DNA of 64,000 bases, taken from the NCBI RefSeq assembly GCF_034661235.1, contig NZ_CP141059.1, forward strand, positions 1,426,001 to 1,490,000, read 5' to 3'. This DNA comes from Nocardioides bizhenqiangii (GTDB lineage: Bacteria; Actinomycetota; Actinomycetes; Propionibacteriales; Nocardioidaceae). Within the stretch, counting starts at the first letter, position 1; each line of letters begins with the position of its first letter. The notes beneath the pieces are model-generated. The model was given only the letters and a program-made list of their open reading frames with translations, was not told the origin of the DNA and ran no database searches. The translations under genes were made by a program, and so were the position numbers. Of the stretch, positions 32,383-61,395 are shown piece after piece.

Positions 32383-32401
32383 CTCCTCCCTGACGGGTGA
32401 G
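32383..32401. promoter_or_regulatory. Repeated 7-5-7 palindrome, degenerate copy
   Basis: CTCCTCC-CTGAC-GGGTGAG: right half exact, left half two changes from CTCACCC. It lies 106 bases before the arylsulfatase start (minus strand). Confidence 0.5.
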
Positions 32402-32464
32402 CGAGGTGATGGCGACACCCGCGCAGAGATCGATCGTCGAGGCGGTCGGATCGTGAGCGCTGCC

Positions 32465-33433
32465 TCAGCGAGCGCAGCGGAAGCCGATGTGCGTGGTCGC
32501 AGTGTCGTCGGCTTGTGGCGATCGGGCCGCCGGCCGGTAGCGCAGGCAGTACTCGGGAGCGCACAGGTGCGAGCCGCCCTTGAGCACCCGGCGCGGGATC
32601 GTCGAACCCGGTTCGGCGCTCGCCACCGCCCGCGCCTCGTCCCGTGAGGTCGGTCCGCACCGACAGTTGTCATCGCAACCGTTCGTGGCCAGCAGATCGA
32701 GGGGCTGCTGGGCGCTTTCGGCGGGCGCGTGCCGCTCGGTATAGAAGTCGGTGGTCCATTCCCAGACGTTGCCGATGCAGTCGAACAGACCGTATCCGTT
32801 CGCCGGGAAGGTGCCGACCGGCGACGTCCCGACCCAGCCCTCGGCGCCAGTGTTGTGCCAAGGGAACGAGCCCTGCCAAGTGTTGGCCAGCAGGCGTCCG
32901 CCGGGACGGAGTTCCTCGCCCCATGCATACGTCGTCCCAGGCATGCCGCCCTGGGCGGCGTACTCGAGCTCGGCCTCGGTGGGGAGTCGTTTGCCTGCCC
33001 AGGCCGCATACGCCTCGGCGTCCTCCAGCGCGATCTGGACGACTGGATGGTCCTCACGGCCCCGGATCGAGGAGCCTGCCCCGAAAGGCCGGGCCCAGCT
33101 CGCGCCGACGCCCCATCTCCACCACTGTCGCCAGTCGTTCAGATCGACCGGGCCGCGGGTCGGAACGAAGACCAGCCCGCCGGGTACGAGCTCAGCGGGG
33201 TCGACCCCCGGGAACGCCGCCGGGTCCAGCGGACGTTCGGCCAATGTCACGTATCCCGTCTCGGCCACGAAGGCCGCGTACTGCGAATTCGTGACCGGGT
33301 GGACGTCCAGCTCGAAGGCCTCCACGACGCGCTCGTGGACGGGACCTTCCTCGGGATAGAACGCGTCCGAGCCCATCGGGAAGGAGCCTGCTTCGAGACG
33401 GACCATCTCCGTCGGCGCTTCGGGCGCGGTCAC
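32465..33433 (-). CDS. Formylglycine-generating enzyme (sulfatase activator)
   Basis: 322 residues from GTG 33433. It oxidises the sulfatase active-site cysteine to formylglycine. The whole FGE-sulfatase fold is readable: GSFPMGSD, EEGPVHERVVEAFELDVHPVTNSQYAAFV, HPVVQIALEDAEAYAAWAGKRLPTEAELEYAA, GLFDCIGNVWEWTTDFY, and KGGSHLCAPEYCLRYRPAAR with the copper-binding pair C291 and C296. Both cysteines are kept, so it should be catalytic and not a mere FGE-fold protein. It stands next to its presumed client sulfatase. Confidence 0.94.
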   Translation of the reverse strand: MTAPEAPTEMVRLEAGSFPMGSDAFYPEEGPVHERVVEAFELDVHPVTNSQYAAFVAETGYVTLAERPLDPAAFPGVDPAELVPGGLVFVPTRGPVDLNDWRQWWRWGVGASWARPFGAGSSIRGREDHPVVQIALEDAEAYAAWAGKRLPTEAELEYAAQGGMPGTTYAWGEELRPGGRLLANTWQGSFPWHNTGAEGWVGTSPVGTFPANGYGLFDCIGNVWEWTTDFYTERHAPAESAQQPLDLLATNGCDDNCRCGPTSRDEARAVASAEPGSTIPRRVLKGGSHLCAPEYCLRYRPAARSPQADDTATTHIGFRCAR

Positions 33434-33455
33434 GCGATCAACAATGCCAGACGCG

Positions 33456-34355
33456 TCACGCACCGAGCGAGGTCCTAGCAACAGAGAGCAGCCGCGCGCT
33501 CTCGGCAATGAGTCGCTGCCTGATCGGAGCCGCCCGCTCCGCGAAAACGCGTTGTGACTCGGCGTACTCCTGCTTGCCGGCTGGAGTCTCGATCCTCACC
33601 GGAGACCAGGCGTCACCGTCTCCCAGGTCGAGGTCGCTGAGGTCATACGGGGCGGCACGCATGTCCAGCACCCTGATGTCCCACGCCAGCTCGAAGCAGT
33701 CGGCGACCAGCTCAGAGGCGACCATCGGCGAGAGCCGGAACGCGTGCTTGTAGAGGTCCATGCCGGCGTGCAGGCAGGCCGGCTGCTCGTGAGCCGGGCG
33801 GTCCTCGCGGCCGGGGGAGAGGGTGTTGAGCGGGCGCGCCGGGGCCGTGAAGAAGCGGTAGGCGTCGAAGTGCGAGCAGGCGATCCGGTGCGACTCGACG
33901 ACCGCGTCGGTGCCGGCGGGACCGAGCCGCAGCGGCCATTCGGCATGCCGGGTCTCGTCCTCGGCGAGCCGGTAGACCATGGCCCACTCGTGCAGGCCGA
34001 AGCACCCGAAGCTGCCTGCCCGCCCGGCGGTCGCGGTGAGCAGCCGGTGCAGGGCCTCGACCAGCGTTCGCTGGGTGGCGACGTACGACGCGCTGACCGC
34101 TCCGTCGACGTACCCCTTGAGCCCGGCGTACTTGGGCGCATCGGCCAGCGCCACGCCGTACCCCGGGTGCCACCGCCGCAGCTGCGCCGGCCGGAACGAG
34201 TAGTAGGTGAAGAGGAAGTCGAAGACCGGGTGCTTGACCCGCGCCTCACGGCGCTCCAGGTGGGGAGCCAGGAACCGGTCGACCCGTGCGGCGTGCGCGG
34301 CCGCCCGGGTCTCCCACACCTCCCGCGGCAGTACCTGCTCCACGATGGTCTCCAC
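33456..34355 (-). CDS. Conserved actinobacterial protein (often named 3-methyladenine DNA glycosylase; role doubtful)
   Basis: 299 residues from GTG 34355. Segments such as WETRAAAHAARVDRFLAPHLERR, HPVFDFLFTYYSFRPAQLRRWHPG and CFGLHEWAMVYR are, as far as I recall, typical of an actinobacterial family whose database name is glycosylase-like. No helix-hairpin-helix or catalytic Asp of known glycosylases is visible to me. TAGGCT eight bases before the GTG suggests a leaderless start. The FGE gene follows 22 bases downstream, probably on the same transcript. Confidence 0.7.
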   Translation of the reverse strand: METIVEQVLPREVWETRAAAHAARVDRFLAPHLERREARVKHPVFDFLFTYYSFRPAQLRRWHPGYGVALADAPKYAGLKGYVDGAVSASYVATQRTLVEALHRLLTATAGRAGSFGCFGLHEWAMVYRLAEDETRHAEWPLRLGPAGTDAVVESHRIACSHFDAYRFFTAPARPLNTLSPGREDRPAHEQPACLHAGMDLYKHAFRLSPMVASELVADCFELAWDIRVLDMRAAPYDLSDLDLGDGDAWSPVRIETPAGKQEYAESQRVFAERAAPIRQRLIAESARLLSVARTSLGA

Positions 34356-34363
34356 GACCGTCA

Positions 34364-34369
34364 AGCCTA
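34364..34369 (-). promoter_or_regulatory. Leaderless -10 element for the 34355 gene
   Basis: TAGGCT on the minus strand ends eight bases before GTG 34355. Confidence 0.4.
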
Positions 34370-34413: not shown

Positions 34414-34419
34414 CGCCGG

Positions 34420-42424: not shown

Positions 42425-42838
42425 TCAGGCCGGCCGGTCCAGCCGATCGAATCCTTCTGTCCGCCGTGACAGCCAGACGATCAGGGTGTGGATCAGCCAG
42501 GCCGCGAAGCCGTAGACCACCGTCGCGAACAGCACGGAGGTGTCGAGCACCGCTTCCACCTGGTTGCCTCCGTCGCCGAGCTCGATGGAGGTGAGGATCC
42601 CGCGGAACGGCTCCATGGCACGGTCCAGGGACCGGTAGGCCCACTGGACGAACGGCGGATCGGGATTCGCTCCGAGGAGGAGCAGGACGAACCCGAGCAC
42701 GAGGACGGTCTCCGTCAGGATCACGTAGACGTAGAGCAGGTACGCCAGGGCGCGAGCTCCCCAAAGGACGGCATGTCGCTCGTGACCGACCGGGGCGGTG
42801 AGGGTGTCGAGGCTTGGTGCGCTAGGGCACGAGAACAT
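42425..42838 (-). CDS. YggT-family membrane protein (copy A)
   Basis: 137 residues from ATG 42838. Two membrane regions flank a conserved centre, WAYRSLDRAMEPFRGILTSIELGDGGNQVEAVLDTSVLFA, which is nearly identical to that of the gene at 49720. Proteins of this type have two to four helices and uncharacterised roles in cell envelope or ion balance. It lies directly downstream of the PLDc_N gene on the same strand (28-base gap), so the two are probably co-transcribed from the palindrome-containing promoter region. Confidence 0.8.
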   Translation of the reverse strand: MFSCPSAPSLDTLTAPVGHERHAVLWGARALAYLLYVYVILTETVLVLGFVLLLLGANPDPPFVQWAYRSLDRAMEPFRGILTSIELGDGGNQVEAVLDTSVLFATVVYGFAAWLIHTLIVWLSRRTEGFDRLDRPA

Positions 42839-42866: not shown

Positions 42867-43148
42867 TCACGGCTCTCCGGCCTGGGAGCGCATCGTCGCG
42901 TGCCTGTCGATCGCCGCCTGCTGCGTGCGATCGGGCAGCGAGTCGCCCCGCGCGAGGAGATAGATGACCGCACCCAGCCACGGCAGCACGACGATGCAGA
43001 AGATCCACAACGCCTTGGAGGCACCACGCAGGCTGCGGTCCCTCAAGATGTCGCCGACGATGAAGACGAACAAGTAGATCCACGACATCAACAGCATGAA
43101 CGAGAAGGTCGAGACGATGACTTCCCACAGGCCGAAACCGTCCTCCAT
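42867..43148 (-). CDS. Small membrane protein with PLDc_N domain
   Basis: 93 residues from ATG 43148, AAGGA six bases upstream. Two hydrophobic helices carry the phospholipase-D-N-terminal motif (IFCIVVLPWLGAVIYLLARG), then a polar tail. The same motif occurs fused to real cardiolipin synthases, as in the gene at 57762. No catalytic domain is present. A perfect copy of the repeated palindrome lies 81 bases upstream. Confidence 0.85.
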   Translation of the reverse strand: MEDGFGLWEVIVSTFSFMLLMSWIYLFVFIVGDILRDRSLRGASKALWIFCIVVLPWLGAVIYLLARGDSLPDRTQQAAIDRHATMRSQAGEP

Positions 43149-43229
43149 GAGCTGTCCTTGCTGTCGTCGGGACCGGGCGCGCGATTGCCGCGCCGGTCCA
43201 TTACCGTCTCGGCGGACCGTCGCAGCGGG

Positions 43230-43248
43230 CTCACCCGCGCAGGGTGAG
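43230..43248. promoter_or_regulatory. Repeated 7-5-7 palindrome, perfect copy
   Basis: CTCACCC-GCGCA-GGGTGAG, 81 bases before the PLDc_N gene (minus strand). Confidence 0.85.
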
Positions 43249-43431: not shown

Positions 43432-43450
43432 CTCACCCCGCGTGGGTGAG
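43432..43450. promoter_or_regulatory. Repeated 7-5-7 palindrome, perfect copy
   Basis: CTCACCC-CGCGT-GGGTGAG, 60 bases before the CYTH gene (plus strand). Confidence 0.85.
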
Positions 43451-43510: not shown

Positions 43511-44275
43511 ATGACCGAAACTGCTCCGGCGGGTAGCCTTGCTCCCGACCAGGCCGACGAGCTGGCGACGCTCCTTCAGAGTGCTGACTCCGTGGAGCTG
43601 AAGCTGACCGTCCCCGACAACGACCAGCGCTCGGCGGTTCGAGCACTGGAGATGGACCCGCTCGAAGCCGAGCTCCGCCAGGTGTTCTTCTTCGACACGC
43701 CCGACCTCGCCCTCAACCGGCAAGGCGTGATTGTGCGAGCACGGAGGACGACGCGCAGGGACGACAGCGTGGTGAAGCTGCGTCCAGTGGTGCCGAGCGA
43801 GGTATCTGCCGAGCTGCGCGCCCTCAAGGGGTTCGGCGTGGAGGTCGACGTGATGCCGGGAGGCTTCGTGTGTTCGGCCAGCCTCCAGGCGAAGATGCGT
43901 GCCGGGAAGGTGAAGGAAGCACTGGACGGCGAGCGCGGACTGACGTCACTCTTCGACAAGAGGCAGCGCGCGTTCTTCGCGGATTGCGCCCCTGACGGGA
44001 TGTCCGTCGATGACCTCACGGTTCTGGGTCCGATCCTGGTGATGAAGCTGAAGTTCTCGCCCAGTGGTTACGACGGTCGACTCGTCGCAGAGCTCTGGCT
44101 GTACCCGGACGGGTCCCGCATCCTGGAGCTCTCCACCAAGGCCGCGACGACCGAAGCGTTTACGGTGGCCGCTAGCACCAAGCAATTCCTCCAGCAGCGC
44201 GGCATCGACTTGACCGGCGAGCAGCAGACGAAGACCAAGACGGCGCTCGAGTTCTTCTCGTCCGAGCTTCGGTAA
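43511..44275 (+). CDS. CYTH-like domain protein
   Basis: 254 residues from ATG 43511. A CYTH-type beta barrel is suggested by VELKLTVPDN at the start, LRQVFFFDTPDLALNRQGVIVRARRTTR (strand with basic residues), VVKLRPVV and, late, ILVMKLKFSP and RLVAELWLYPDGSRILELSTKA. CYTH enzymes hydrolyse inorganic triphosphate or thiamine triphosphate, or make cAMP. The usual ExExK signature appears only as ELK, so activity may differ. There is no membrane segment. It is preceded by a perfect palindrome copy. Confidence 0.7.
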   Translation: MTETAPAGSLAPDQADELATLLQSADSVELKLTVPDNDQRSAVRALEMDPLEAELRQVFFFDTPDLALNRQGVIVRARRTTRRDDSVVKLRPVVPSEVSAELRALKGFGVEVDVMPGGFVCSASLQAKMRAGKVKEALDGERGLTSLFDKRQRAFFADCAPDGMSVDDLTVLGPILVMKLKFSPSGYDGRLVAELWLYPDGSRILELSTKAATTEAFTVAASTKQFLQQRGIDLTGEQQTKTKTALEFFSSELR

Positions 44276-44469: not shown

Positions 44470-44488
44470 ATCCCCCGCCCGGGGTGAG
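44470..44488. promoter_or_regulatory. Repeated 7-5-7 palindrome, degenerate copy
   Basis: ATCCCCC-GCCCG-GGGTGAG: right half exact, left half 5 of 7. It lies 115 bases before the DUF1622 gene. The rest of 44276-44603 holds only the YggT remnant. Confidence 0.5.
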
Positions 44489-44603
44489 GCCGTCGGACCC
44501 GTAGGGGCGGATGCTGACCAGACGATGGACTCTCGCCTCGGAAACACGGTCCCGAGCGGGCTCATGCTGACGCCATGCTGCACGAGCACGTGAGGAAACT
44601 CAG

Positions 44604-45008
44604 ATGCACTTCCACGAGGCGATGGAGCGAGTCGTCCAGGGTTTCGAGATCGGTGGGGTCGCCATCCTCGTGGTCGGCTCGCTGGTGGCTCTCGGGTCCG
44701 CTGGCCTTGCGTGGCGTCGCGAAGGCGGCTCCATCGCGTATCAACGCGCCCGGCAGGGAGTGGGCAGGGCGATCCTGCTGGGCCTGGAGTTCCTGATCAT
44801 CGCCGACATCGTGCTGACGATCACGATCGAGCCGACACTTGACAGTGCCCTGGCGCTGGGGCTCATCGTCCTCGTGCGCACCTTCCTCAGCTTCTCCCTC
44901 GAGATCGAGCTGGAGGGTGTCTTGCCGTGGCGGCGTAAGGCGATCGAGGGCGCTGACCGTCCTCCCGCTGGCTCCTTGGGGCGCGGGAAGTCGACGCCGG
45001 CAGTGTGA
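44604..45008 (+). CDS. DUF1622 membrane protein
   Basis: 134 residues; GAGGAAA precedes ATG 44604. The N-terminus FHEAMERVVQGFEIGGVAILVVGSLVAL, the central RQGVGRAILLGLEFLIIADIVLTITIEPT and LIVLVRTFLSFSLEIELEG are the three conserved blocks of DUF1622, with about three helices. The function is unknown. It belongs to the palindrome-preceded set. Confidence 0.88.
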   Translation: MHFHEAMERVVQGFEIGGVAILVVGSLVALGSAGLAWRREGGSIAYQRARQGVGRAILLGLEFLIIADIVLTITIEPTLDSALALGLIVLVRTFLSFSLEIELEGVLPWRRKAIEGADRPPAGSLGRGKSTPAV

Positions 45009-45234: not shown

Positions 45235-45235
45235 G

Positions 45236-49217: not shown

Positions 49218-49252
49218 GCGATGGGCGGTATCCGTTCGAAAGGGAGGACACG

Positions 49253-49669
49253 ATGTTCTTTGCACTACTCGCGAAGTTCCTGCTGAAGCAGCCGCCGATG
49301 GTGCAGGCGGCCGTGCTGGGCCTGTGCACCGGGCTCTTCGTCGCTGCGACCGCTGAGGCGAACGAGCGCGACCCTGCCGTCAGCTCGGTGGTCTGGCTCG
49401 TGCTCGGCTGGGGCGCTCTGGCAGGTGCCCTCTACTACGCGGGCTTCATGCTCCAGCACAGGCGCGGAGCGGCGATCGAGGACGACGTGCCTCCCTGGGT
49501 CCACGCGCTGTACGCCGCCGTGTGGGTCTTCGGAGTCGTTGCCGCCCTGCTGGCCCTCTTCGGCGACGGTGGGTTCAAGGTTGCCGCTCTGGCGATCGTG
49601 CCGCTCGTCCTCCTCGCGCCATCCGCCTTCTACGGGATCCGGCAGATCACCCATCGAGTGCCGGCCTGA
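49253..49669 (+). CDS. Small membrane protein, four helices
   Basis: 138 residues from ATG 49253, preceded by AGGGAGGA. Four hydrophobic segments are visible (VQAAVLGLCTGLFVAA, SVVWLVLGWGALAGALYYAG, LYAAVWVFGVVAALLALF, AALAIVPLVLLAPSAFYG). No family is recognised. It lies 35 bases after the fused remnant and may use the same promoter. Confidence 0.75.
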   Translation: MFFALLAKFLLKQPPMVQAAVLGLCTGLFVAATAEANERDPAVSSVVWLVLGWGALAGALYYAGFMLQHRRGAAIEDDVPPWVHALYAAVWVFGVVAALLALFGDGGFKVAALAIVPLVLLAPSAFYGIRQITHRVPA

Positions 49670-49719
49670 CCAGCTCCAACCTCGCGTCGCAGCAGCCTGC
49701 TCCGGCCAACCGAGTGCAG

Positions 49720-50124
49720 CTAGATCGTCCGATCCTGCCAGTCCGACCGTTCCAACTTGCGCGTCAGCCAGACGATCCCGCTGTGGATCAGCCAGGCGAG
49801 GAGGCCGTAGATCACCATCGCGAAGAGCACAGAGGTGTCGAGCACAGCCTCGACCTGGTTGGCCCCATTGCCCAGCTCGATGGAGGTGAAGATGCCCCGG
49901 AACGGCTCCATTGCGCGATCCAGGGACCGATAAGCCCACTCTACGAATGGCGTATCGGGATTCGCGCCGAGGAGGAGCAGGAAGAACCCGAGCACGAGCA
50001 CGACTTCAGTCACGACCACATAGGTGTAGATCAGGTACGCCAGCGCGCGAGCTCCCCAGACGACGGCACGGCCTTCGTGATGCACTGGCCGCGGTGCAGA
50101 AAGCGGGGCCTGGTCCGACGACAT
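49720..50124 (-). CDS. YggT-family membrane protein (copy B)
   Basis: 134 residues. The core WAYRSLDRAMEPFRGIFTSIELGNGANQVEAVLDTSVLFAMVIYGLLAWLIHSGIVWL is close to copy A at 42425, with hydrophobic segments on both sides. Only the first 20 residues differ strongly. A perfect copy of the palindrome lies 75 bases upstream. Confidence 0.8.
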   Translation of the reverse strand: MSSDQAPLSAPRPVHHEGRAVVWGARALAYLIYTYVVVTEVVLVLGFFLLLLGANPDTPFVEWAYRSLDRAMEPFRGIFTSIELGNGANQVEAVLDTSVLFAMVIYGLLAWLIHSGIVWLTRKLERSDWQDRTI

Positions 50125-50199
50125 CTTGTTCCTCGCTCAGGATTGAGAACAACAGTTGTGGGTTCCAGGTACACCTTCGCCGGAGCCTCGGCGACGTCC

Positions 50200-50218
50200 C
50201 TCACCCACCATGGGTGAG
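50200..50218. promoter_or_regulatory. Repeated 7-5-7 palindrome, perfect copy
   Basis: CTCACCC-ACCAT-GGGTGAG, 75 bases before YggT copy B (minus strand) and just after the HAD gene. Confidence 0.85.
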
Positions 50219-50234
50219 TCACGGGGCGCCGGCT

Positions 50235-51146
50235 TCAGACGGGCCGGAAGACGGTCGCCCAGTCACTGGCCATGCTGACCACGGTCCATCCGAGTCGGAT
50301 GCCGACGTCCCTGATCGGCTCGGCCTCCTCGAAGCTTGCGGCCTTGCTCGCGTAGCTGAACTCGCGATCGCCGTCGTCGTGGTCGACGAGCAGTGCGAGC
50401 GTCGGCCCGTCGCCAGCTGCCGCCCACTCGAGCATCTCCCGGTCGCCACCGGAGTTCCCTGCTGCGAGGAGGGGCCGCCGGCCCAGCTGACGCTGGATGT
50501 TGCTCACCTTGACGGTGCCCTCGTTGGCAGCGCCGTCGAGACTGCCGGTCCTGCGGAGCCGTGGCGCGCCGTTGTCGTCGCGGGAGTACTCATAGTCGAT
50601 GAGGGTGCCGACGACCGCCTCCGGCGGTACGCCGTACAGCTGGTGGCTGATCGCCCGCACGAACTCGGTGCCCCCACCCGTGACGATCGTGACCGCCACG
50701 TCACGGCGCCTCAGCTCGTCGATCAGCTCGATCATCGGTTGGTAAACGAGGTCGCCCGGCGGCCGGGCCAGAGTGGGGTGCTGGCTCCTGGCCATGAAGT
50801 CGCGGACCCGGTCCCTGAACTCCTCCGCCGGGATCCCCTCGAACAGGCTGGTCAGAGCGAGGGCGATCCGTTCGAGCCCGAGCTCGCCGACCGCTGCTGC
50901 ATCGTGGTTCAGCAGAGCTGCGAACTCCGGCACCCCCGTCACGTCGGTCTCAGCCGCGCGGACCTTGAGTGCATCGATGAAGAAGTCGTACTGGACGTAG
51001 TTCGGACGTTCGCACCAGAGGGTGCCGTCATTGTCGAAGCAGGCGATGCGATCCTCCTCGGGCACGTCGAGCACCGCGTCGAGGAACCCCAGCACCGCAT
51101 CGCGGGTGGCGCCGGGTCGCCAGGACGGAAGAATCAGGTCGTCCAT
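50235..51146 (-). CDS. HAD-family hydrolase (phosphoserine-phosphatase-like)
   Basis: 303 residues from ATG 51146, which shares one base with the FGE stop. HAD motif I is CFDNDGTLW (nucleophile D38, D40), motif II VTIVTGGGTEF, motif IV LAAGNSGGDREMLEW. A large helical cap separates I and II, placing it in the subclass I phosphatases. It is the third gene of the sulfatase-FGE-HAD operon; a role in removing phosphate from the desulfated product, or in regulation, is conjecture. Confidence 0.88.
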   Translation of the reverse strand: MDDLILPSWRPGATRDAVLGFLDAVLDVPEEDRIACFDNDGTLWCERPNYVQYDFFIDALKVRAAETDVTGVPEFAALLNHDAAAVGELGLERIALALTSLFEGIPAEEFRDRVRDFMARSQHPTLARPPGDLVYQPMIELIDELRRRDVAVTIVTGGGTEFVRAISHQLYGVPPEAVVGTLIDYEYSRDDNGAPRLRRTGSLDGAANEGTVKVSNIQRQLGRRPLLAAGNSGGDREMLEWAAAGDGPTLALLVDHDDGDREFSYASKAASFEEAEPIRDVGIRLGWTVVSMASDWATVFRPV

Positions 51147-52099
51147 CAGGAGATCACCTCTAGGTTGAGGGGGGTGCTGCGGCCGACGCAGCGGAACCCC
51201 ATGTGGCTGGTGCCCGTGTCGATCATCTGCGGGCGCCGCGCAGCGGGGCGGTACCGCAAGCAATAGGTGTCAGCGCACAGGTGTGAACCACCTTTGACGA
51301 CGCGACGTCCGACGCGGAACTGGGGCTGCGCCGGGTCGTAGCTGTCTTCCTGCCGTCCACCGCGCGGGTTGGCCGGCACACAGCAGGGCTTGTCGACCTC
51401 GTCCGGGTGGCGCTGGGTCCACCAGTCCGAGGTCCACTCCCAGACGTTGCCCGCCATGTCGAACAGTCCGTAGCCGTTGGCAGGGAAGCTGCCGACCGGT
51501 GCGGTGCCCACGAAGCCGCTCTCCCGGGTACTGCGCCAGGGGAAGTCCGGACCGTCCCAGGTGTTCGCCATGATCCTGCCGCCGGGGCGCGCCTCGTCCC
51601 CCCATGTGTACGCCGCGCCGTCCAGCCCGCCGCGGGCCGCGTACTCCCACTGCGCCTCGGTGGGGAGCGCTCCGCCCGCCCAGTCCGCGTAGGCGGCGGC
51701 GTCCTCGTACGCCACGTGGACGACCGGGTGGTCCGGTCGCCGCTTCACCGAGCTCCCGGGTCCCTCGGGACTCGACCAGCAGGCGCCGGGTGTCCAGGTC
51801 CACCACTGGCTGATGTGGCGGAGGTCCACGGGCCCCTCGGTCGGGGTGAAGACCAACGAGCCGGGCACCAGGTTCTCGCTCGGCGCGTCGGGGTAGCCCG
51901 CCGGGTCGAGCGGGCGTTCGGCCACCGTGCGGTACCGGGTCGCCTTCACGAACCCGCTGTACTGCTCGTTGGTGACCTGGATCGCGTCGATCCTGAACGG
52001 GTCGACGCGGACCTGATGGCGCGGCGCCTCCTCGGGATAGTGGTCGTCGGACCCCATCGTGAAGACGCCGCCGGGCAGGGAGACCCGCGAGGTCTCCAT
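51146..52099 (-). CDS. Formylglycine-generating enzyme, second copy
   Basis: 317 residues from ATG 52099. It shows the same blocks as the FGE at 32465: GVFTMGSDDHYPEEAPRHQVRVDPF, VTNEQYSGFV, HPVVHVAYEDAAAYADWAGGALPTEAQWEYAA, GLFDMAGNVWEWTSDWW, and KGGSHLCADTYCLRYRPAARRPQ with catalytic cysteines C275 and C280. It follows the CxAxR-type sulfatase by 20 bases and is likely dedicated to it. The C-terminal tail GRSTPLNLEVIS is an addition. Confidence 0.94.
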   Translation of the reverse strand: METSRVSLPGGVFTMGSDDHYPEEAPRHQVRVDPFRIDAIQVTNEQYSGFVKATRYRTVAERPLDPAGYPDAPSENLVPGSLVFTPTEGPVDLRHISQWWTWTPGACWSSPEGPGSSVKRRPDHPVVHVAYEDAAAYADWAGGALPTEAQWEYAARGGLDGAAYTWGDEARPGGRIMANTWDGPDFPWRSTRESGFVGTAPVGSFPANGYGLFDMAGNVWEWTSDWWTQRHPDEVDKPCCVPANPRGGRQEDSYDPAQPQFRVGRRVVKGGSHLCADTYCLRYRPAARRPQMIDTGTSHMGFRCVGRSTPLNLEVIS

Positions 52100-53625: not shown

Positions 53626-53695
53626 GGGTCCTCCTGACTTGCACTCGACTGCCCGAGTGACACCTGCGAAAGTAGGAGCGAGCCGTGCGCGAGGC

Positions 53696-53729: not shown

Positions 53730-54383
53730 TCAGACCGCAAAGCTCACCGGGAGGGACACCACCCACGCGATCGCGCCGAGGAGGGTGAGAGCCCCGGCGA
53801 GCGTCATGACCCAGCGCAGCCGGCGGCTGGCGAGTCGCGTGCTCATGCCCGCGAAGAACAGCACCACGGCGTACAGCACCACAGTGAGGATGTAGTTGCT
53901 GGAACGCTGGATGTAGGTACGCACCTCGGCGGCCGACTCCTCGGCTTCCGCGTCGAGACGCGCGGCCTCGTTCTTGGACTCCACCTGGTACTCCGGCATG
54001 GCGAACGGGGTCGACGGAGCGGCCGGGTCGGAGAACGGGCGGGTGGCGATCCAGGCGTCGTACGCCGGCTGGAACTCCTCCCGGAAGCGTTCGGCGAGGA
54101 ATTGTGCGAGGTCGTCCTCCCCGCGCCGGTCTGCCTCTGCCCAGGCGATGAAGGTCGCCACGTCGACCTGCGTCTGCGACCGAGCAAGACCGTCCGCTCG
54201 GGCCGCCTCGATCCTGATCGCGTTCGTCCGCCCGGCAGCGGCGGCCTGCTCGCCGTTCCACCGCGTCGCCTGAAAGCTGCTCCACGACGTTGCCAGCGCC
54301 GCGACCACGAGCAGCACCGTGACCAGCAGCTCTTGCCAGCTGCGCCCGTTCTCCGCGGGCTCCTGCTCAGCTGCGGCGACCAT
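53730..54383 (-). CDS. Membrane protein with coiled-coil middle, partner of DUF4239 gene
   Basis: 217 residues from ATG 54383 (GTG 54413 would add ten residues). One N-terminal helix (ELLVTVLLVVAALATSWSSFQATRW), an acidic helical middle of about 110 residues (FIAWAEADRRGEDDLAQFLAERFREEFQPAYDAW), then two C-terminal helices (YILTVVLYAVVLFFAGMSTRL and WVMTLAGALTLLGAIAWVVSLP). No family is assigned. It overlaps the DUF4239 gene by 17 bases, so the two are translated together. A truncated copy is at 48790-49217. Confidence 0.8.
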   Translation of the reverse strand: MVAAAEQEPAENGRSWQELLVTVLLVVAALATSWSSFQATRWNGEQAAAAGRTNAIRIEAARADGLARSQTQVDVATFIAWAEADRRGEDDLAQFLAERFREEFQPAYDAWIATRPFSDPAAPSTPFAMPEYQVESKNEAARLDAEAEESAAEVRTYIQRSSNYILTVVLYAVVLFFAGMSTRLASRRLRWVMTLAGALTLLGAIAWVVSLPVSFAV

Positions 54384-55185
54384 GCTCGTCACACGGGGGA
54401 TCGACGACGACACCGACAGCCTCTGCCTCGAGCTCGATCACCCGCAAGGTCCGCTCCATCGCCGTCGGCTGGAGCCGGCCCACGCCGTCCCCGTGTGGAT
54501 GGTCGAAGAACAACAACAGCAGCAGGAGCAGGGAGATCACGACCGTGACGCTGCCCATGAGCATCCCCTGCGTCACCGGCCCTTCGTCGGGATCGGCGAA
54601 GAACAGCAGGTAGCCGAAGATGACTGCCGAGATCAGGAACAACACGAACCAGACGGGCAACGGGATGATGCCCTCGGCGCCGTGGATCCGGTCGATCCGG
54701 GCCTGTTCACGTTGCGCCGTCTGGTCCATCCACCGGTCATAGGCGGACTGCTCGGTCGACGCCGCAGGCTCGATCGAGGAGATGGTTTGGAACATCTCCG
54801 CGCCCCAGGGATTGATCTGCTCACCCAGTTCTCCGCTGTCGACGGCATCCCATTCGGTACCCGCCACCGAGCGGGCGTAGCACGTCAGCTCGCCCGTGAG
54901 CTCCTCCGACACCTCGAGGTACTGGGCCGTCTGGACCTGTTGAAGCACGATCGTCGCCTCGGCCTCGGCGCCGGACCTCGACTCGTCGTACGACGTGAAG
55001 GCCAGGAAGATGATGAACCCGAGCAGCACGGAGTAGCCGGTGGCGAGCACCCCGAAGACGCCGGACGCCCGGTCTCCATCCGTGAAGTAGCTGCCCTGAG
55101 GAGCCCGCCGACGCACGACCAGCATCGCGGTCACCGTGACCGCGGTGACGACGACCGTCACCACGAGGCCGAAGACGATGTTCAT
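54367..55185 (-). CDS. DUF4239 (bestrophin-like) membrane protein
   Basis: 272 residues from ATG 55185. A first helix (IVFGLVVTVVVTAVTVTAMLVV) is followed by YFTDGDRASGVFGVLATGYSVLLGFIIFLAF, the DUF4239 core. A soluble helical part and two more helices (PVWFVLFLISAVIFGYLLFF and MLMGSVTVVISLLLLLLLFF) follow. Family members are suspected ion channels through similarity to bestrophin; this is not proven. The palindrome lies 121 bases upstream. Confidence 0.88.
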   Translation of the reverse strand: MNIVFGLVVTVVVTAVTVTAMLVVRRRAPQGSYFTDGDRASGVFGVLATGYSVLLGFIIFLAFTSYDESRSGAEAEATIVLQQVQTAQYLEVSEELTGELTCYARSVAGTEWDAVDSGELGEQINPWGAEMFQTISSIEPAASTEQSAYDRWMDQTAQREQARIDRIHGAEGIIPLPVWFVLFLISAVIFGYLLFFADPDEGPVTQGMLMGSVTVVISLLLLLLLFFDHPHGDGVGRLQPTAMERTLRVIELEAEAVGVVVDPPCDEHGRRS

Positions 55186-55306: not shown

Positions 55307-55325
55307 CTCACCCGTGGCGGATGAG
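55307..55325. promoter_or_regulatory. Repeated 7-5-7 palindrome, near-perfect copy
   Basis: CTCACCC-GTGGC-GGATGAG, one change. It is placed between the divergent DUF4239 gene (121 bases) and the metallo-hydrolase gene (60 bases to its preferred start). Confidence 0.75.
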
Positions 55326-55385: not shown

Positions 55386-56174
55386 TTGGGCATCGTCGTC
55401 ACGTGGCTCGGTCACTCCACAGCCGTCGTAGATCTCGACGGCGTGCGGATCGTCGCTGACCCGCTGCTGAGACGCAACAACGGCATCCTGCGCCGCCGTG
55501 GCATCCAGCCGGTCCGAGCCGCGTGGGAGGCGGCGGATGCCGTCCTGCTCTCCCACCTGCACCACGACCACGCCGAGGTCCCCTCCCTCAAGCTGTTCCA
55601 GGGCGTGCCGGTCCTCACGGCGCCCGCCAACGCCACCTGGGTGAGGCGCAAGGGGCTTGACGGGCGGGGGCTGGCCGACGACGAGTGGTTTCCCGTAGGC
55701 GCTGAAGGCCACGTCGAGGTGCGGCTCGTGGAGGCGATCCACGATTCGCGGCCGATGCCCCACCGTCCGAACGCCGCGAACGGCCACCTCGTCCGGGGGC
55801 CGTCGGGCGTCGCCTGGCTGGCGGGGGACACCGATCTCTACCCCGGCATGGCGGCTCTGTCCGAGATCGCCGGCGGATCCATCGACGTCGCCCTCGTCCC
55901 GATCGGGGGTTGGGGACCTCGTCTCTCACCGGGACACATGGGGCCGCAGGAAGCCGCCGTGGCTTGCCGGCTGAGCGCAGCCCGGCACGCCGTCCCTGTC
56001 CATTGGAAGACGTTGCACGTGCCCGCCGGCGAGATGGTGCCCCGCGGTTGGATGGACGTGGCCGGACCACGGTTCTTGGAAGCCTTGGCGGCAGAGGCGC
56101 CCGACTGCCGGGCGGTCGACCTGGACATCGGTGGATCGGTCACCATACCGACCGTCGTGAGCCCTGGAGACTGA
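55386..56174 (+). CDS. Metallo-beta-lactamase-fold hydrolase (UlaG-like)
   Basis: 262 residues from TTG 55386. This start has GGGAGGAG nine bases upstream, gives the usual beginning of the fold (IVVTWLGHSTAVVDLDGVRIVADPLL), and keeps the palindrome outside the gene; the open frame from GTG 55314 would put the palindrome inside it. Metal site SHLHHDHAE (H57, H59, D61, H62), then AGDTDLYPG and VPIGGWGP, then HWKTLH. Related proteins hydrolyse lactones or phosphodiesters, including NAPE-PLD-like enzymes. The substrate is unknown. Confidence 0.88.
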   Translation: MGIVVTWLGHSTAVVDLDGVRIVADPLLRRNNGILRRRGIQPVRAAWEAADAVLLSHLHHDHAEVPSLKLFQGVPVLTAPANATWVRRKGLDGRGLADDEWFPVGAEGHVEVRLVEAIHDSRPMPHRPNAANGHLVRGPSGVAWLAGDTDLYPGMAALSEIAGGSIDVALVPIGGWGPRLSPGHMGPQEAAVACRLSAARHAVPVHWKTLHVPAGEMVPRGWMDVAGPRFLEALAAEAPDCRAVDLDIGGSVTIPTVVSPGD

Positions 56175-56192: not shown

Positions 56193-56211
56193 CTCACTCG
56201 CCGCGGGGGAT
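56193..56211. promoter_or_regulatory. Repeated 7-5-7 palindrome, degenerate copy
   Basis: CTCACTC-GCCGC-GGGGGAT, one change left and two right; 33 bases before the HerA-like gene. Confidence 0.45.
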
Positions 56212-56244
56212 ACGCAGGGTCGGAACGGGCCGGACACTCGGCCT

Positions 56245-57762
56245 GTGGACACTGCCCTCGATCGGTCCGACCCGCTGGCCGAGCAGATCACGCGTTACCG
56301 AGACGTCCGCGAGCGCATCGAGAAGGGCACCCTCGCGCTGGCGACGTCGGTCGATGGTCGCGCTTTCGAATTCCAGGCCTCACTTCACGGATTGGCGCTT
56401 AGGCGAGGTGCCTACGTCGTCCTCGAGCATGCGGGCGGGCGGCGGTTCGGCCAGCTCACCGACCTGGCGAGTCACACCGCCGACGTCGGGGTGCCCGGCG
56501 TCGACGGCGCGACCACCACGGTTCGCGTCCGGTTGGCCGGAGGCAACGGCCTCCTCCTCGATCAAGGAGGACCGTTCCACGACGCGCAGGTACGGCCCGC
56601 GCTTCCCGACGAGGTGCGCGCGTGGCTCGCGGAGGCCAGTCGACCGGACCGGGCAGGTCTCGTCGTCGGAGAGCTGCTGATGGCACCCGGTGTACTCGCC
56701 GAGCTCGACAGCGGTGGGCTCAACAGGCACACGTTCATGTGCGGTCAGTCCGGCTCCGGCAAGACCTACTCGCTCGGCCTCCTGCTCGAGCGCGTGCTCG
56801 TCGAGACCAGCCTGCGCATCGTCATCCTCGATCCGAACTCCGACTACGTCGGCCTGGGGCGGCTCCGCGCGGACGTCGACCCTGCGCGGGCGGCGGCCTA
56901 TCGATCCGTTCCTGACGACGTCGCGGTGTGGAGCAACGAACCCGGCGCCGACCGGCTGTTGAGACTCCGCTTCGCCGAGCTCGACGCGCGCACCCAAGGG
57001 GCAGTCCTCGGTCTCGATCCGATCGCCGACAGGGACGAGTACGCCGTACTCACCGATCTCCTGCGTGCGACCGAGGCCGGCAGGCCCGTGGTCAGCGGTC
57101 TCGACCAGCTGATCGGCTCGCCCAACCCGGCCGCTCAGCACCTGGGGATGCGGGCGCTCAACCTCGGGGTGCTCGACTGGAGCATCTGGAGCCCCGACGC
57201 GCCTTCGCTCCTCCAGGAGTTGGAGGAGCCGAGCAGCCGGTGCCTGGTCGTGGACCTCGGCTCGCTGGAGACGCTCGACGAGCAACGAATGGTCGCGGAC
57301 GCGGTGCTGGCGTCGCTCTGGAGGTTGCGAAGGAATCGCGAGCCGGTGCTCGTCGTCATCGACGAGGCCCACAACATCTGCGCCGCCGAGCCGTCGAACC
57401 CCGTGAGCACCGTGTCGACCGAGAGGGCCGTCCAGATCGCGGCCGAAGGCCGTAAGTACGGCCTCTATCTCCTGGTGTCGACACAACGACCCGACAAGGT
57501 CCACGAGAACGTCGTGTCGCAGTGCGACAACCTGCTGCTGATGCGGATGAACTCCAGCGCCGACGTCGCAGACCTCGCCCGGATGTTCTCCTACGTGCCA
57601 CCCGGGCTGCTGGACGGGGCGCCGTCGTTCGGGATGGGCCAGGCCCTCGTCGGCGGCCGGATCTACCCCCAGGGTGGTGCCTACGTGCAGATGGGCGCAC
57701 GGGTGTCGCAAGAAGGCGGCGCCGACATACCGACCACCTGGGCCCGGCCCCGGGGCGCGTAG
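56245..57762 (+). CDS. HerA-like ATPase (DUF87)
   Basis: 505 residues from GTG 56245. An N-terminal beta domain with FGQLTDL resembles the HAS barrel of HerA. Walker A is CGQSGSGKTYSLG near residue 170; Walker B is VLVVIDEAHNIC near 372. Then comes IAAEGRKYGLYLLVSTQRPDKVHENVVSQCDNLLLMRMNSSADVADL, the sensor and arginine-finger area of HerA/FtsK-type ring motors. No NurA nuclease is adjacent. It overlaps the cardiolipin-synthase gene by one base, an unusual partner for a DNA-translocase family member. Confidence 0.85.
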   Translation: MDTALDRSDPLAEQITRYRDVRERIEKGTLALATSVDGRAFEFQASLHGLALRRGAYVVLEHAGGRRFGQLTDLASHTADVGVPGVDGATTTVRVRLAGGNGLLLDQGGPFHDAQVRPALPDEVRAWLAEASRPDRAGLVVGELLMAPGVLAELDSGGLNRHTFMCGQSGSGKTYSLGLLLERVLVETSLRIVILDPNSDYVGLGRLRADVDPARAAAYRSVPDDVAVWSNEPGADRLLRLRFAELDARTQGAVLGLDPIADRDEYAVLTDLLRATEAGRPVVSGLDQLIGSPNPAAQHLGMRALNLGVLDWSIWSPDAPSLLQELEEPSSRCLVVDLGSLETLDEQRMVADAVLASLWRLRRNREPVLVVIDEAHNICAAEPSNPVSTVSTERAVQIAAEGRKYGLYLLVSTQRPDKVHENVVSQCDNLLLMRMNSSADVADLARMFSYVPPGLLDGAPSFGMGQALVGGRIYPQGGAYVQMGARVSQEGGADIPTTWARPRGA

Positions 57763-59213
57763 TGGACAACCTTCTGGTCATCGCCGGGGTGGCTCTGGTC
57801 GTCACGGATTACGTGATCAAGTTCCTGGCGATCGGGGTGCTGCCCCACAACCGCAAGCCGTCGTCCGCCATGGCGTGGCTGATCCTCATCCTGATCATCC
57901 CGTTGGCAGGCTTCGGCCTCTTCCTGCTCCTCGGCCGGACCAACCTCGGCCGGAAACGGCTCGCGCGGCAACGGGAGGCGGACGAGGCGATCCGGGCGGC
58001 CACCGACCAGCTGCCGACCACGCCCGTGGCCGGGCCCGGGTACGTCGGCTCGATGGCGACCCTCAACCTCAACCTCGGCTCCCTGCCCCTCCAGGCGGGC
58101 AACCGGGTGGAACTGATCTCCGGCTACGGCGACGCGATCACCGCGATGACGGCGGAGGTGGCCGGCGCGAGGGACAGCGTCGAGGTCGAGTTCTACATCT
58201 CGGCGTGGGACGACGTCACCGCCCCGTTCTTCGAGGCGCTTGCGGCGGCAGCCGCCCGTGGCGTGAAGGTACGACTGCTGTTCGACCACATGGGGTCCAA
58301 AGGCATTCCGGGCTACGACGACTTCGAGAAGCGGCTCGACGGCACCGACATCGAATGGCACCCGATGCTGCCGGTGCGACCGTTGAAGGGACAGTTCCAG
58401 CGGCCCGATCTGCGCAACCACCGCAAGCTCATGGTCGTCGACGGCCGGATCGGGTTCATGGGGTCGCAGAACCTCATCGAGCCGGGTTACAACAAGCCGA
58501 AGAACCATGCGGCCGGACGGGAGTGGGTCGAGCTCGTGGCCCGCGTCGACGGGCCGGCGGTCACCTCGCTCCGGGCAGTGTTCGCCAAGGACTGGTACAC
58601 CGAGACGCACCAGCGAATGGGAGGTGAGATCTCCCCATCGGCGCCCGCGAACCACGCGGATGGGGTGGCGGCCCAGGTGGTGCCCAGCGGTCCCGGTTAC
58701 GTGACCGAGAACAACCTGCGGCTCTTCACCGCGCTCATCTACTCCGCGCAGTCGCGCATCTCGTTGACGAGTCCCTATTTCGTGCCCGACGAGCCATTGC
58801 TGTACGCCGTGACCACGGCCGCGCGACGGGGGGTGGAGGTCGAGCTCTTCGTCAGCGAGGAGGGCGACCAGTTCATGGTCTACCACGCCCAGTGCTCCTA
58901 CTACCAAGCCCTGCTCGAGGCGGGCGTCCGGATCCACCTCTACCCGGCACCGGCGGTCCTGCACTCCAAGCACTTCTCTATCGACGACGACGTCGCGGTG
59001 ATCGGGTCGAGCAACATGGACATGCGGTCGTTCGCGCTCAACCACGAGGTGTCGATGATGCTGACCGGTGGCGACATCGTGGCCCGGTTCCGCAAGGTCG
59101 AGGACGACTACCGCGCCCTGTCGCGGGAGCTGACGATCGACGAGTGGCGGCAGCGGTCCAAGGTGCAGCGGTACCTCGACAACACCATGCGCCTCACCGC
59201 GGCCCTGCAGTAG
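57762..59213 (+). CDS. cls: Cardiolipin synthase (phospholipase D superfamily)
   Basis: 483 residues from GTG 57762. Two N-terminal helices form the PLDc_N anchor (VIAGVALVVTDYVIKFLAIGVLP and AWLILILIIPLAGFGLFLLLG). Two HKD motifs follow: HRKLMVVDGRIGFMGSQN and HSKHFSIDDDVAVIGSSN. The enzyme joins two phosphatidylglycerols, or PG and CDP-DAG, into cardiolipin at the membrane. It overlaps the ATPase gene and is followed seven bases later by the ClC gene. Confidence 0.92.
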   Translation: MDNLLVIAGVALVVTDYVIKFLAIGVLPHNRKPSSAMAWLILILIIPLAGFGLFLLLGRTNLGRKRLARQREADEAIRAATDQLPTTPVAGPGYVGSMATLNLNLGSLPLQAGNRVELISGYGDAITAMTAEVAGARDSVEVEFYISAWDDVTAPFFEALAAAAARGVKVRLLFDHMGSKGIPGYDDFEKRLDGTDIEWHPMLPVRPLKGQFQRPDLRNHRKLMVVDGRIGFMGSQNLIEPGYNKPKNHAAGREWVELVARVDGPAVTSLRAVFAKDWYTETHQRMGGEISPSAPANHADGVAAQVVPSGPGYVTENNLRLFTALIYSAQSRISLTSPYFVPDEPLLYAVTTAARRGVEVELFVSEEGDQFMVYHAQCSYYQALLEAGVRIHLYPAPAVLHSKHFSIDDDVAVIGSSNMDMRSFALNHEVSMMLTGGDIVARFRKVEDDYRALSRELTIDEWRQRSKVQRYLDNTMRLTAALQ

Positions 59214-59220: not shown

Positions 59221-60588
59221 ATGAGCTCCGAGCCCACGAGTCGTCAGCAGGTGAGCAGCGTGGCGGGCGGCACGCAGGAGCCGGAGCCGCTCGTCGCGGC
59301 AGATCCTGGGCTGCACGACCGCGCCTACCTGGTGCTGCTGCTGGTCGTGGCCCTGCTCGGCATCCCTCTCTCGCTTGCGGCGTTCGGCTTCCTGGTTGCC
59401 GTCCACGAGCTCGAGCACGTGGTGTGGGAGTCCCTGCCGTCGGCCCTGGGGTACGACGAGCTGCCGAGCTGGTGGGCGATCCTCACGATCGCGACGGCCG
59501 GCCTGCTGGTGGGGCTGGCAGTCAAGTACCTGCCCGGTCACGGTGGTCACGTTCCTGTTGCCGGCTTCGGCGGAGAACCTGCGACGCCGAGCATGCTGCC
59601 CGGGGTGGTGCTGGCGGCCGCGGCGAGCCTCGTGGGCGGTGCAGTGATCGGGCCCGAGGCGCCGTTGATCGCGATCGGCGGCGGGCTCGCCCTCGTGGCG
59701 GTCCGCCGCACGCGGATGGGCGAGGACGCCGGCACCGGCACCATCGTCGCCGCGGCGGGTGCAGCGGCTGCCATGTCGGCGATCTTCGGCAACCCACTCG
59801 TCGCGGTGGTGATCTTCCTCGAGATCCTGGGGCTAGGACGCAGGCGGACGATGCTCGTGGTGCTGCCCTGCCTGGTCTCGAGCGCCGTCGGTGCGCTGCT
59901 GTTCACCGGCATGGGCCGCTGGACCGGGCTGGAGATCGGTGAGCTCTCGATCCCGGACCTCGCCCCCGTGCGCCTCTCCGTGGCTGAGGTGGCGTGGGCA
60001 CCGCTCCTGGCAGCCGCTGTCGCGTGTCTCACGTGGTCGGTCTTCTTCGTCGGCGGCTGGGTCGCCCGCGTCGCCGCGTCCCGGCCCATGTCGACGACAG
60101 TGGCTGCTGGACTGGTCGCGGGGGGCGCGGCCTGTGCCTATGCCTGGGCGACGGGTCACTCTCCGGCAGAGGTGGCGCTCTCGGGCCAGGCCCTCCTCCC
60201 GGTGCTGGCCACCGATCCGGCAGCCTGGTCGTCAGGGGGCCTGGTTGCCCTTGTTGCCTTCAAGAGCGTGGCGTACGGCGTCTCGCTGGGCGCGTTCCGC
60301 GGCGGTCCGGTCTTCCCCGCCGTACTGCTCGGGGCGGCGTGTGGCGTACTCGCCAGCAGCCTGACGCCCGGGATCGAGCTGCTGCCGGGACTGGCGATCG
60401 GCATGGCCGCCGGCGCAGCGACGACCGGGCTCCCCGTGACCAGCGTTGCCCTGGTCGTGCTCCTCCTGGGCGACGCTGCCGCCAGTCAGATGCCCGTGGT
60501 GATCCTGGCCGTCGTCACCGCCATGGTCGTCCACGAGCGGCTTTCCAGCTGGGTCCTTCCGCCTGGCGACGCTCAACCGGACGGGTGA
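59221..60588 (+). CDS. ClC-family chloride channel or antiporter
   Basis: 455 residues, about ten to twelve hydrophobic segments. The ClC selectivity motifs are seen as GGAVIGPEAPLIAIGGG (GxxGPE type) and FRGGPVFPAVLLGAACG (GxFxP). There is no C-terminal CBS pair. ClC proteins exchange chloride or fluoride with protons and help in acid or osmotic stress. It is the third gene of the HerA-cls-clc operon. Confidence 0.9.
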   Translation: MSSEPTSRQQVSSVAGGTQEPEPLVAADPGLHDRAYLVLLLVVALLGIPLSLAAFGFLVAVHELEHVVWESLPSALGYDELPSWWAILTIATAGLLVGLAVKYLPGHGGHVPVAGFGGEPATPSMLPGVVLAAAASLVGGAVIGPEAPLIAIGGGLALVAVRRTRMGEDAGTGTIVAAAGAAAAMSAIFGNPLVAVVIFLEILGLGRRRTMLVVLPCLVSSAVGALLFTGMGRWTGLEIGELSIPDLAPVRLSVAEVAWAPLLAAAVACLTWSVFFVGGWVARVAASRPMSTTVAAGLVAGGAACAYAWATGHSPAEVALSGQALLPVLATDPAAWSSGGLVALVAFKSVAYGVSLGAFRGGPVFPAVLLGAACGVLASSLTPGIELLPGLAIGMAAGAATTGLPVTSVALVVLLLGDAAASQMPVVILAVVTAMVVHERLSSWVLPPGDAQPDG

Positions 60589-60596
60589 CGTCGGCG

Positions 60597-60863
60597 CTAG
60601 ACCTCGTCCTCGTCGTCCTCGACGTCGTCCTTGTCGTCGTCCTCGTTCAGGGACCAGGTGAGCTGGAACTCGATCTCCTCCTCGCCGTCCCCGCGTTCGT
60701 GCTCGACCGACAGCTCCGCCCGCCGCGGGACCCGGATCCGCTCACCGGCGATCTGGATGCGGAACGGCCGGTCCTTCTCCAGGGCATCGGCCAGCCGGCG
60801 AAGCTTCGCCACGGCCGCGGCGGTGGAGTAGATCCGTTCGACGTCGCGTTCGTCCTTACCCAC
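60597..60863 (-). CDS. Amphi-Trp domain protein
   Basis: 88 residues from GTG 60863. The core IYSTAAAVAKLRRLADALEKDRPFRIQIAGERIRVP...EIEFQLTWS is the amphi-Trp domain (TIGR04354 type), followed by a strongly acidic tail (DDDKDDVEDDEDEV). It is small and soluble; the function is unknown. Six bases after the DUF7144 gene on the same strand. Confidence 0.85.
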   Translation of the reverse strand: MGKDERDVERIYSTAAAVAKLRRLADALEKDRPFRIQIAGERIRVPRRAELSVEHERGDGEEEIEFQLTWSLNEDDDKDDVEDDEDEV

Positions 60864-60869
60864 GGGCTG

Positions 60870-61313
60870 TCAGTTGATGTGGAGGGCGTCGCGGCCGCCG
60901 TGCGCGGTGACCGCGTAGATGACCATGAAGTCGACGGCGATCATGACGAGCGACCACAGGGGGTAAGCGGGCATGAACGCGAGATTGACCAGCGCGCTCA
61001 GGAACGCCATCGCCACCGCGACGACCCGCGCCCAGGTCGCTCCTCTGGTGAGGGCGACACCGGCGAACGCGACGATCAGCCCGAGGATGAGATGCGTCCA
61101 TCCCCACGCCGTGTAGTCGACCGTCACCACGAGGTCGGACTTGCCGACCAGGTAGTAGTCCTCCTTGAACACCCCGATCAGGCCCGCCACCGCGTGGAAG
61201 GACCCGAGGAGGACCATCATCACGCTCGCGAACGCGATCCAGCCGTACCACCCGTTGCCGGGCGCCTCCGTCCGGTGGGCGCTTCTCTGGTCTGCGGGAA
61301 CACCTGTAGACAT
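60870..61313 (-). CDS. DUF7144 family membrane protein
   Basis: 147 residues from ATG 61313, AAGGGA upstream. Four helices carry the family blocks WIAFASVMMVLLGSFHAVAGLIGVFKEDYYLV, VTVDYTAWGWTHLILGLIVAFAGVAL, and VNLAFMPAYPLWSLVMIAVDFMVIYAVTAHG. The function is unknown. The palindrome lies 63 bases upstream. Confidence 0.88.
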   Translation of the reverse strand: MSTGVPADQRSAHRTEAPGNGWYGWIAFASVMMVLLGSFHAVAGLIGVFKEDYYLVGKSDLVVTVDYTAWGWTHLILGLIVAFAGVALTRGATWARVVAVAMAFLSALVNLAFMPAYPLWSLVMIAVDFMVIYAVTAHGGRDALHIN

Positions 61314-61376
61314 GTTCGTCCCTTCCTCGTCGGACCTGCTTCTGGACCCAGGATGGAGATCCTCGCGGCGCGGTAC

Positions 61377-61395
61377 CTCACCCACGGGGGGTGAC
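61377..61395. promoter_or_regulatory. Repeated 7-5-7 palindrome, near-perfect copy
   Basis: CTCACCC-ACGGG-GGGTGAC, between the divergent DUF7144 gene (63 bases) and the membrane-protein gene (32 bases). Confidence 0.8.

Follow-up and report, generated by a model that had tools for sequence, protein, structure and literature searches.

The closest described counterpart of the element reported here lies in Actinoplanes sp. SE50/110, where Droste et al. 2020 (PMC7567727) describe a 51-gene region with the palindrome TCATCC-N5-GGATGA positioned 34.4 +/- 1.0 nucleotides (nt) before 17 transcription starts. That region holds two MalT-like regulators; when malT was deleted, 42 of the 51 genes were transcribed less, and when it was overexpressed, at least 39 were transcribed more; deletion of the second regulator had slight effects only (unpublished data of its authors). 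Transcription of the cluster was higher on maltose than on glucose, the maltose genes were unaffected by malT, and the authors left the physiological role of the region unexplained (PMC7567727). The same paper gives the MalT box of Escherichia coli and Klebsiella as GGGGA(T/G)GAGG, and the passages of PMC9628970 on SCO6993, a LAL regulator of Streptomyces coelicolor, report that it binds palindromes and its own promoter. Here we describe a palindrome, CTCACCC-N5-GGGTGAG, in a 64 kb stretch of Nocardioides bizhenqiangii (the window, G000:C1:1426001-1490000, of a genome consisting of one contig of 4.55 Mb). A sequence-only reading of the window had not recognised it as a known actinobacterial operator, and it is best taken as a variant of the published Actinoplanes MalT motif. 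We propose, with a probability of about 0.83, that it is the site of a MalT-type (LAL, LuxR helix-turn-helix) activator encoded in the same genomic island, most likely a 757-aa protein, with a 469-aa partner.

With the Actinoplanes region as presented in PMC7567727 the system shares inverted six-base half-sites at 5-nt spacing, a position over the -35 region (there from transcription starts mapped at 34.4 nt, here from a sequence proxy, a -10 core at +22/23), a cluster of many genes that bears many sites and is mosaic in content, two MalT-like LuxR regulators in the region, and a class II glutamine amidotransferase (there ACSP50_3919, here in a cluster of the congener G029). The half-sites differ, GGATGA there and GGGTGA here; among 73 oriented sites position 5 is C in 65 and T in eight, a count biased by the TCACCC-based pattern with which the sites were drawn. 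In the ranking of dyads given below, which is free of that bias, TCATCC-N5 (5) also stands below TCACCC-N5 (16). The Actinoplanes arginine deiminase set is not among the proteins scanned here, and sulfatase, formylglycine-generating enzyme (FGE) and ion-transport genes are prominent instead. With E. coli and Klebsiella MalT the system has in common the LAL architecture, a match to structure 8bob over the ATPase part and a box near -35, but its sites are inverted palindromes, unlike the MalT box; no maltose genes were found among the island proteins scanned against Pfam, a scan covering part of the island and genome genes. SCO6993 resembles the proposed regulator in being a LAL protein that binds palindromes as well as the promoter of its own gene, but it acts negatively and its two target palindromes lack homology to each other (PMC9628970). 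The part of a further paper that names the Actinoplanes region (PMC11205506) holds no new regulon data, and the half-site letters used as a literature query gave nothing relevant among the matches listed; in print, we found such a control system only for Micromonosporaceae.

The palindrome and its promoters

The palindrome is genuine and serves as the mark of a regulon. All 12 sites listed by the sequence-only reading are present in the window: 43230, 43432 and 50200 match CTCACCC-N5-GGGTGAG fully, 45800 is the symmetric variant GTCACCC/GGGTGAC, and 61377 differs in one outer base, in line with the counts which that reading had given. The remainder have the few changes ascribed to them, with one inner base altered at 55307, two bases at 32383, 44470, 48484 and 53696, and three at 56193. 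The five-base spacing said to be constant is kept in 11 of the sites and lost at 45918, which has a spacer of four (CCACCC-AGTC-GGGTGAG). Distances to start codons, put earlier at 30-130 bases, are about 32-131 nt when the starts of the open reading frame (ORF) list are used for the genes at 48634 and 61428.

With up to three mismatches allowed, the window contains 13 sites against 7.8 +/- 3.1 expected, and 13 or more occurred in 7 of 100 shuffles. A scan of the whole genome, which the sequence-only reading had proposed, places the strict sites in one island. All seven sites with at most one mismatch fall within 34 kb (1469230-1503337; none with a reversed-pattern control), and 18 of the 41 with at most two fall within 46.4 kb (1458383-1504751; binomial p ~2e-25; 13 genome-wide with the reversed pattern), the cluster continuing beyond the window end to G000:C1:1504751. 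When half-site hexamers with spacers of 0-12 were ranked in the intergenic DNA of the island, TCACCC-N5 was the first dyad (16), followed by shifted forms of the same element and then by TCATCC-N5 (5). Over the whole island with at most one mismatch, TCACCC yields 16 sites at a spacer of 5 and no more than two at every other spacer from 0 to 15; likewise, among 30 orderings of the half-site, the true order yields 16 and the others no more than two. Chance repeats are rejected by these spacer and half-site-order controls.

Sixteen of the 18 island sites lie outside genes though the island is 81% coding (p ~4e-10), the opposite of the equal frequency in coding DNA by which the motif was to be judged spurious. 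The two intragenic sites, 65103 (SHOCT gene) and 78733 (antiporter gene), numbered on from the window, both lack the -10 core described below. Site 61377 was scored as outside genes; the first gene call had a 269-aa ORF over it, which we discounted because it has no Pfam match and overlaps the opposite-strand DUF7144 gene. Gene calls are from a codon-bias caller and have approximate starts, and two runs disagree for the DUF7144 and SHOCT genes.

The sites are followed by a -10 core, taken as NANNNT with its offset counted from the palindrome end to the core start. In 33 one-directional sites, which have a gene start on one side only and come from ten regions of eight genomes, the core is at +22 (13 sites) or +23 (14 sites), and any other offset up to 50 is seen at most twice; it is present at +22/+23 on the gene side in 27 of the 33 and on the opposite side in none. 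Where starts lie on both sides, at least one side has the core in 31 of 32 sites and both sides have it in 12. Within the island 14 of the 18 sites carry it at 22/23, against a positional background of 8.8%, and elsewhere in the genome 4 of 23 do, which is near chance (p 0.14). In other genomes, 20 stretches that had been chosen beforehand, 17 by a LAL match and three by the motif (L203, L211 and L212), hold 71 sites, 59 of them with the core. Ten of the 12 window sites have the core at exactly +22 on at least one side, including 45918, which has a four-base spacer yet keeps its promoter-proximal half GGGTGAG intact, with TAGCCT at +22. Start codons behind a -10 core (n=70) lie at 33-34 nt in eight cases and at 59-64 nt in 16; a start codon 33-34 nt after the site would coincide with the transcript start, so that such messages would be leaderless. 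Our preferred reading of the palindrome is an activator site that overlies the -35 region, because a spacing of 22-23 nt suits an activator touching RNA polymerase and the Actinoplanes region is activated by MalT.

Candidate regulators and alternative readings

Two LuxR-type, MalT-like regulator genes lie in the island just beyond the window end:

G000:C1:1495930-1497339, 469-aa TPR_MalT-GerE protein, no ATPase domain matched
G000:C1:1497457-1499730, 757-aa AAA-TPR_MalT-GerE protein

The 757-aa protein has the MalT/LAL architecture, with a P-loop ATPase (AAA_22, 27.7 bits; Pfam cut-off 27), a TPR_MalT region and a C-terminal GerE helix-turn-helix (58.7 bits; cut-off 23.5) in one protein, the TPR_MalT matches of both regulators being below the Pfam cut-off (32.5 bits versus 45 in the 757-aa protein). 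Its score of 337 bits against the NCBIfam MalT model NF003420 is below the 537-bit equivalog cut-off, and by these scores it is MalT-like, not MalT in the strict sense. An alignment of its relatives has E. coli MalT (8bob) as its best PDB match, over the ATPase part (E 2.7e-62). Site 1500137 stands before a small gene that precedes the 757-aa regulator gene, and because the same arrangement, with a GTCACCC...GGGTGAC site, recurs in three congeners (G029, G109 and G017), it suggests that the regulator may be autoregulated. Two small proteins adjoin the two LuxR regulators (L039:4848-5141, minus strand, and L039:441-914, plus strand); neither has a Pfam or NCBIfam match, BLAST finds no similarity that would relate them to each other, and relatives of both are at the same place in G029, G109, G017 and G180. 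They are possible modulators of the regulators.

That the palindrome belongs to a regulon of a dimeric regulator, as the sequence-only reading had supposed, is strongly supported by the genome-wide clustering, the extragenic placement, the unique spacer length, the recurrence in other Nocardioides and the fixed -10 spacing. Binding, activation and an inducer are inferred here from the Actinoplanes precedent together with that spacing. An activator dimer would cover the -35 region and the DNA just upstream of it, and the -10 element 22-23 nt downstream would place the transcription start some 34 nt beyond the site. The regulator would be turned on through a ligand- and ATP-dependent module like that of MalT and, once active, would fire the site-bearing operons together, namely sulfatases and their maturases, channels, antiporters, PLD and small membrane proteins, with at least one likely target in trans, a LURP-one protein gene. 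If so, DUF, sulfatase and channel genes of an environmental actinobacterium can be tested as a single regulon for which a candidate activator is named, the promoter rule (palindrome, then -10 at +22/23) can find members in other genomes, and the Actinoplanes observation, whose role its authors could not explain, is extended.

Regulator and motif occur together in other genomes. Of 196 congeners searched, four (G029, G109, G017 and G180) have a close relative of the 757-aa protein (58-65%) and G116 has a partial relative; 48 of the 196, N. bizhenqiangii included, have any match at 1e-40. All eight loci with a regulator at least 51% identical carry 2-10 sites each (reversed control 0), although L091 and L093 are taken as G029 and G017 contigs, and L094/L096 and L095/L097 each come from one contig, so that the eight represent fewer independent cases. 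More distant LAL loci carry four or more sites in 2 of 72. Conversely, 11 of 12 clusters picked by the motif have an ORF with a LuxR helix-turn-helix (486-1012 aa; L211, L212 and L214-L222), as against none of 11 control stretches (Fisher p ~1e-5). The 12 (these and L203) were hand-picked among the matches listed and the controls were arbitrary; the motif-picked L086-L088 (G008 and G010) were excluded because their LuxR proteins seeded the hidden Markov model by which the ORFs were found, a regular-expression finder having been too strict (1 match in 20 loci).

As to the motif itself, the loose form of the palindrome (up to three mismatches) is by itself not significant within 64 kb. Several observations weigh against the proposed MalT-type activator. 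The half-site, mainly GGGTGA, is one base off the published core GGA(T/G)GA (PMC7567727). Site 32383 and the exact palindrome 43432 have no -10 core at 22/23, nor does either of the two sites of L218 or of L222. Among the 17 LAL-picked stretches, L208 and L213 have no site and L197 has two sites without the core, so that a good LAL match is not always the right regulator. The LuxR proteins near motif clusters carry several recognition-helix sequences, and therefore the motif cannot be tied to one helix-turn-helix type; a search by eye for one signature common to every motif-linked LuxR protein was unsuccessful. Finally, L203 (G516:C1:1075001-1095000) has four sites, all with a -10 core, and no LuxR helix-turn-helix ORF in 20 kb even at E 0.1, and any regulator of this cluster would have to act in trans.

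Within the same system, the DNA-binding protein could be mainly the shorter, 469-aa TPR-GerE regulator, or a heterodimer of both. Relatives of the two genes are neighbours in G029, G109, G017 and G180, and LuxR/LAL genes also come in pairs in other motif clusters (G008, G010, G217 and G058); against this, the deletion of the second regulator in Actinoplanes had, as noted, but slight effects (PMC7567727), and L094 has two sites next to a LAL gene resembling that of the 757-aa protein, and inspection of its 22 kb by eye shows no helix-turn-helix of the shorter gene's type. We regard this version as possible but doubtful. The sign of control rests here on inference, and extragenic inverted repeats are typical of repressors; a repressor operator is nonetheless improbable, as the corresponding Actinoplanes region is activated by MalT in the account of PMC7567727. 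Moreover, a spacing of 22-23 nt to the -10 element over many promoters and genomes is what an activator contacting RNA polymerase needs. Inverted repeats rich in G+C are a common feature of such genomes, but a repeat, hairpin or terminator-like element in place of a protein site is very improbable, since the spacers differ in sequence, neither permuted half-sites nor spacers of other lengths show enrichment, related genes still have sites in front of them after rearrangement, and the predicted starts lie downstream, which would leave the palindrome outside the transcript and led us to reject a hairpin or terminator.

Conservation and reach

In G029, G109 and G017 the sites precede relatives of the island genes although gene order has changed, so that the conservation upstream of orthologues on which the sequence-only reading had staked the motif is borne out. 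Other clusters exist elsewhere in G029, and one of these encodes a sulfatase and an antiporter that are 81% and 75% identical, respectively, to those of the island. In the genus, 18 of 215 genomes have at least six exact TCACCC-N5-GGGTGA sites (reversed control at most one); in the class, 30 of 394, N. bizhenqiangii included, have at least eight exact TCAYCC-N5-GGRTGA sites (reversed control at most three) and 133 have none. These are hand counts among the matches listed, and the class counts are uncorrected for genome size, larger genomes yielding more chance sites. The motif is unevenly spread among other genomes. Such a system seems to recur in many actinobacteria. Outside the class, similar sites occur beside LAL genes in an Acidimicrobiia metagenome-assembled genome (L145, six sites) and in a Chloroflexi one (L111, four), the two distant LAL loci counted above, and the survey of the class may understate the age or the mobility of the system.

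Four sites of N. bizhenqiangii outside the island have a -10 core, and for one of them, G000:C1:593706 (core at +23), there is comparative evidence. It precedes a LURP-one-related gene (L172:1491-2131) whose product is 85% identical to one in a G029 cluster, two genes behind site 328019, and in G017 a site lies 59 nt before a gene with the same N-terminus. From this conservation the LURP-one gene is likely to be a regulon member in trans. A wider proposal, for which the odds seem to us a little better than even, is of a widespread actinobacterial system in which island-encoded MalT-like activators, acting through one symmetric palindrome 22-23 nt from the -10 elements of one or two divergent promoters, would turn on gene sets for ion transport, the envelope and sulfatases that are mobile and have been reshuffled; from lineage to lineage the half-site would drift between GGATGA and GGGTGA.

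Sites and genes of the island

The sites in the window and the genes around them are as follows (window coordinates; strand in brackets):

29904-32276 (-), sulfatase, PF00884
32383-32401, palindrome with 2 mismatches, 106 nt before the sulfatase gene; no -10 core at 22/23
32465-33433 (-), FGE-like protein, PF03781
42425-42838 (-), YGGT-like membrane protein, below Pfam cut-off
42867-43148 (-), PLDc_N membrane protein
43230-43248, exact palindrome; -10 core GACGGT at 43203-43208 (-), facing the PLDc_N gene
43432-43450, exact palindrome, 60 nt before the gene at 43511; no -10 core at 22/23
43511-44275 (+), 254-aa protein, no Pfam or NCBIfam match
44470-44488, palindrome with 2 mismatches; -10 core GATGCT at 44510-44515 (+)
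44604-45008 (+), DUF1622 protein
45236-45700 (-), DUF6325 protein
45800-45818, GTCACCC/GGGTGAC palindrome; -10 core CAATGT (-)
45918-45935, variant with 4-base spacer; -10 core TAGCCT at 45957-45962 (+)
46017-48381 (+), sulfatase split over two frames, 46017-46475 and 46147-48381
48484-48502, palindrome with 2 mismatches; -10 core CATGGT at 48524-48529 (+)
48634-49217 (+), apparent frame-split relative of the bestrophin-like gene 54367-55185 (shared N-terminus, by eye)
49720-50124 (-), YGGT-like membrane protein, below Pfam cut-off
50200-50218, exact palindrome; -10 core GAAGGT (-), facing the YGGT-like gene
50235-51146 (-), HAD-type hydrolase
51146-52099 (-), FGE-like protein, PF03781
52120-53625 (-), sulfatase, PF00884
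53696-53714, palindrome with 2 mismatches; -10 core TACTTT at 53669-53674 (-)
54367-55185 (-), bestrophin-like protein, PF14023 (DUF4239 in the sequence-only reading)
55307-55325, divergent palindrome with 1 mismatch; -10 cores AAACGT (+) and TAGCGT (-), both at +22
55386-56174 (+), metallo-beta-lactamase-fold hydrolase
56193-56211, weak palindrome with 3 mismatches; -10 core GACACT at 56233-56238 (+), GTG of the next gene 33 nt on
56245-57762 (+), HerA-like/DUF87 ATPase
57762-59213 (+), PLDc_N and PLDc_2 protein
59260-60588 (+), ClC chloride channel family protein
60870-61313 (-), DUF7144 protein
61377-61395, divergent palindrome with 1 mismatch; -10 cores CACGGT (+) and CATCCT (-), both at +22
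61428-62774 (+), open frame of 448 aa, ATG 61428 at 32 nt after the site; the caller preferred GTG 61587

The label CYTH earlier given to 43511-44275 is not upheld at E 0.001 in Pfam or NCBIfam, and the shorter (GTG 61587) form of the 61428-62774 frame has no Pfam match. The island proteins that were scanned include three sulfatases, two FGE-like maturases, HAD, SulP, Na+/H+ antiporter, ClC, Ion_trans_2 and AI-2E-like proteins, together with PLD, bestrophin-like, DUF1622, DUF6325, DUF7144 and SHOCT proteins. From this gene list a role in the envelope and ion balance, perhaps in late growth or starvation, is plausible.

The sulfatase gene 46017-48381 and the bestrophin-like copy 48634-49217 appear frame-split and could be pseudogenes or reflect assembly indels. 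Six families are present twice in the island, the YGGT-like, Laminin_G-bearing sulfatase, FGE, bestrophin-like, DUF1622 and DUF6325 families, with locations at window positions 29904-33433, 42425-42838, 44604-45700, 46017-52099 and 54367-55185 and at L038:15334-15807 and L039:10157-10795.

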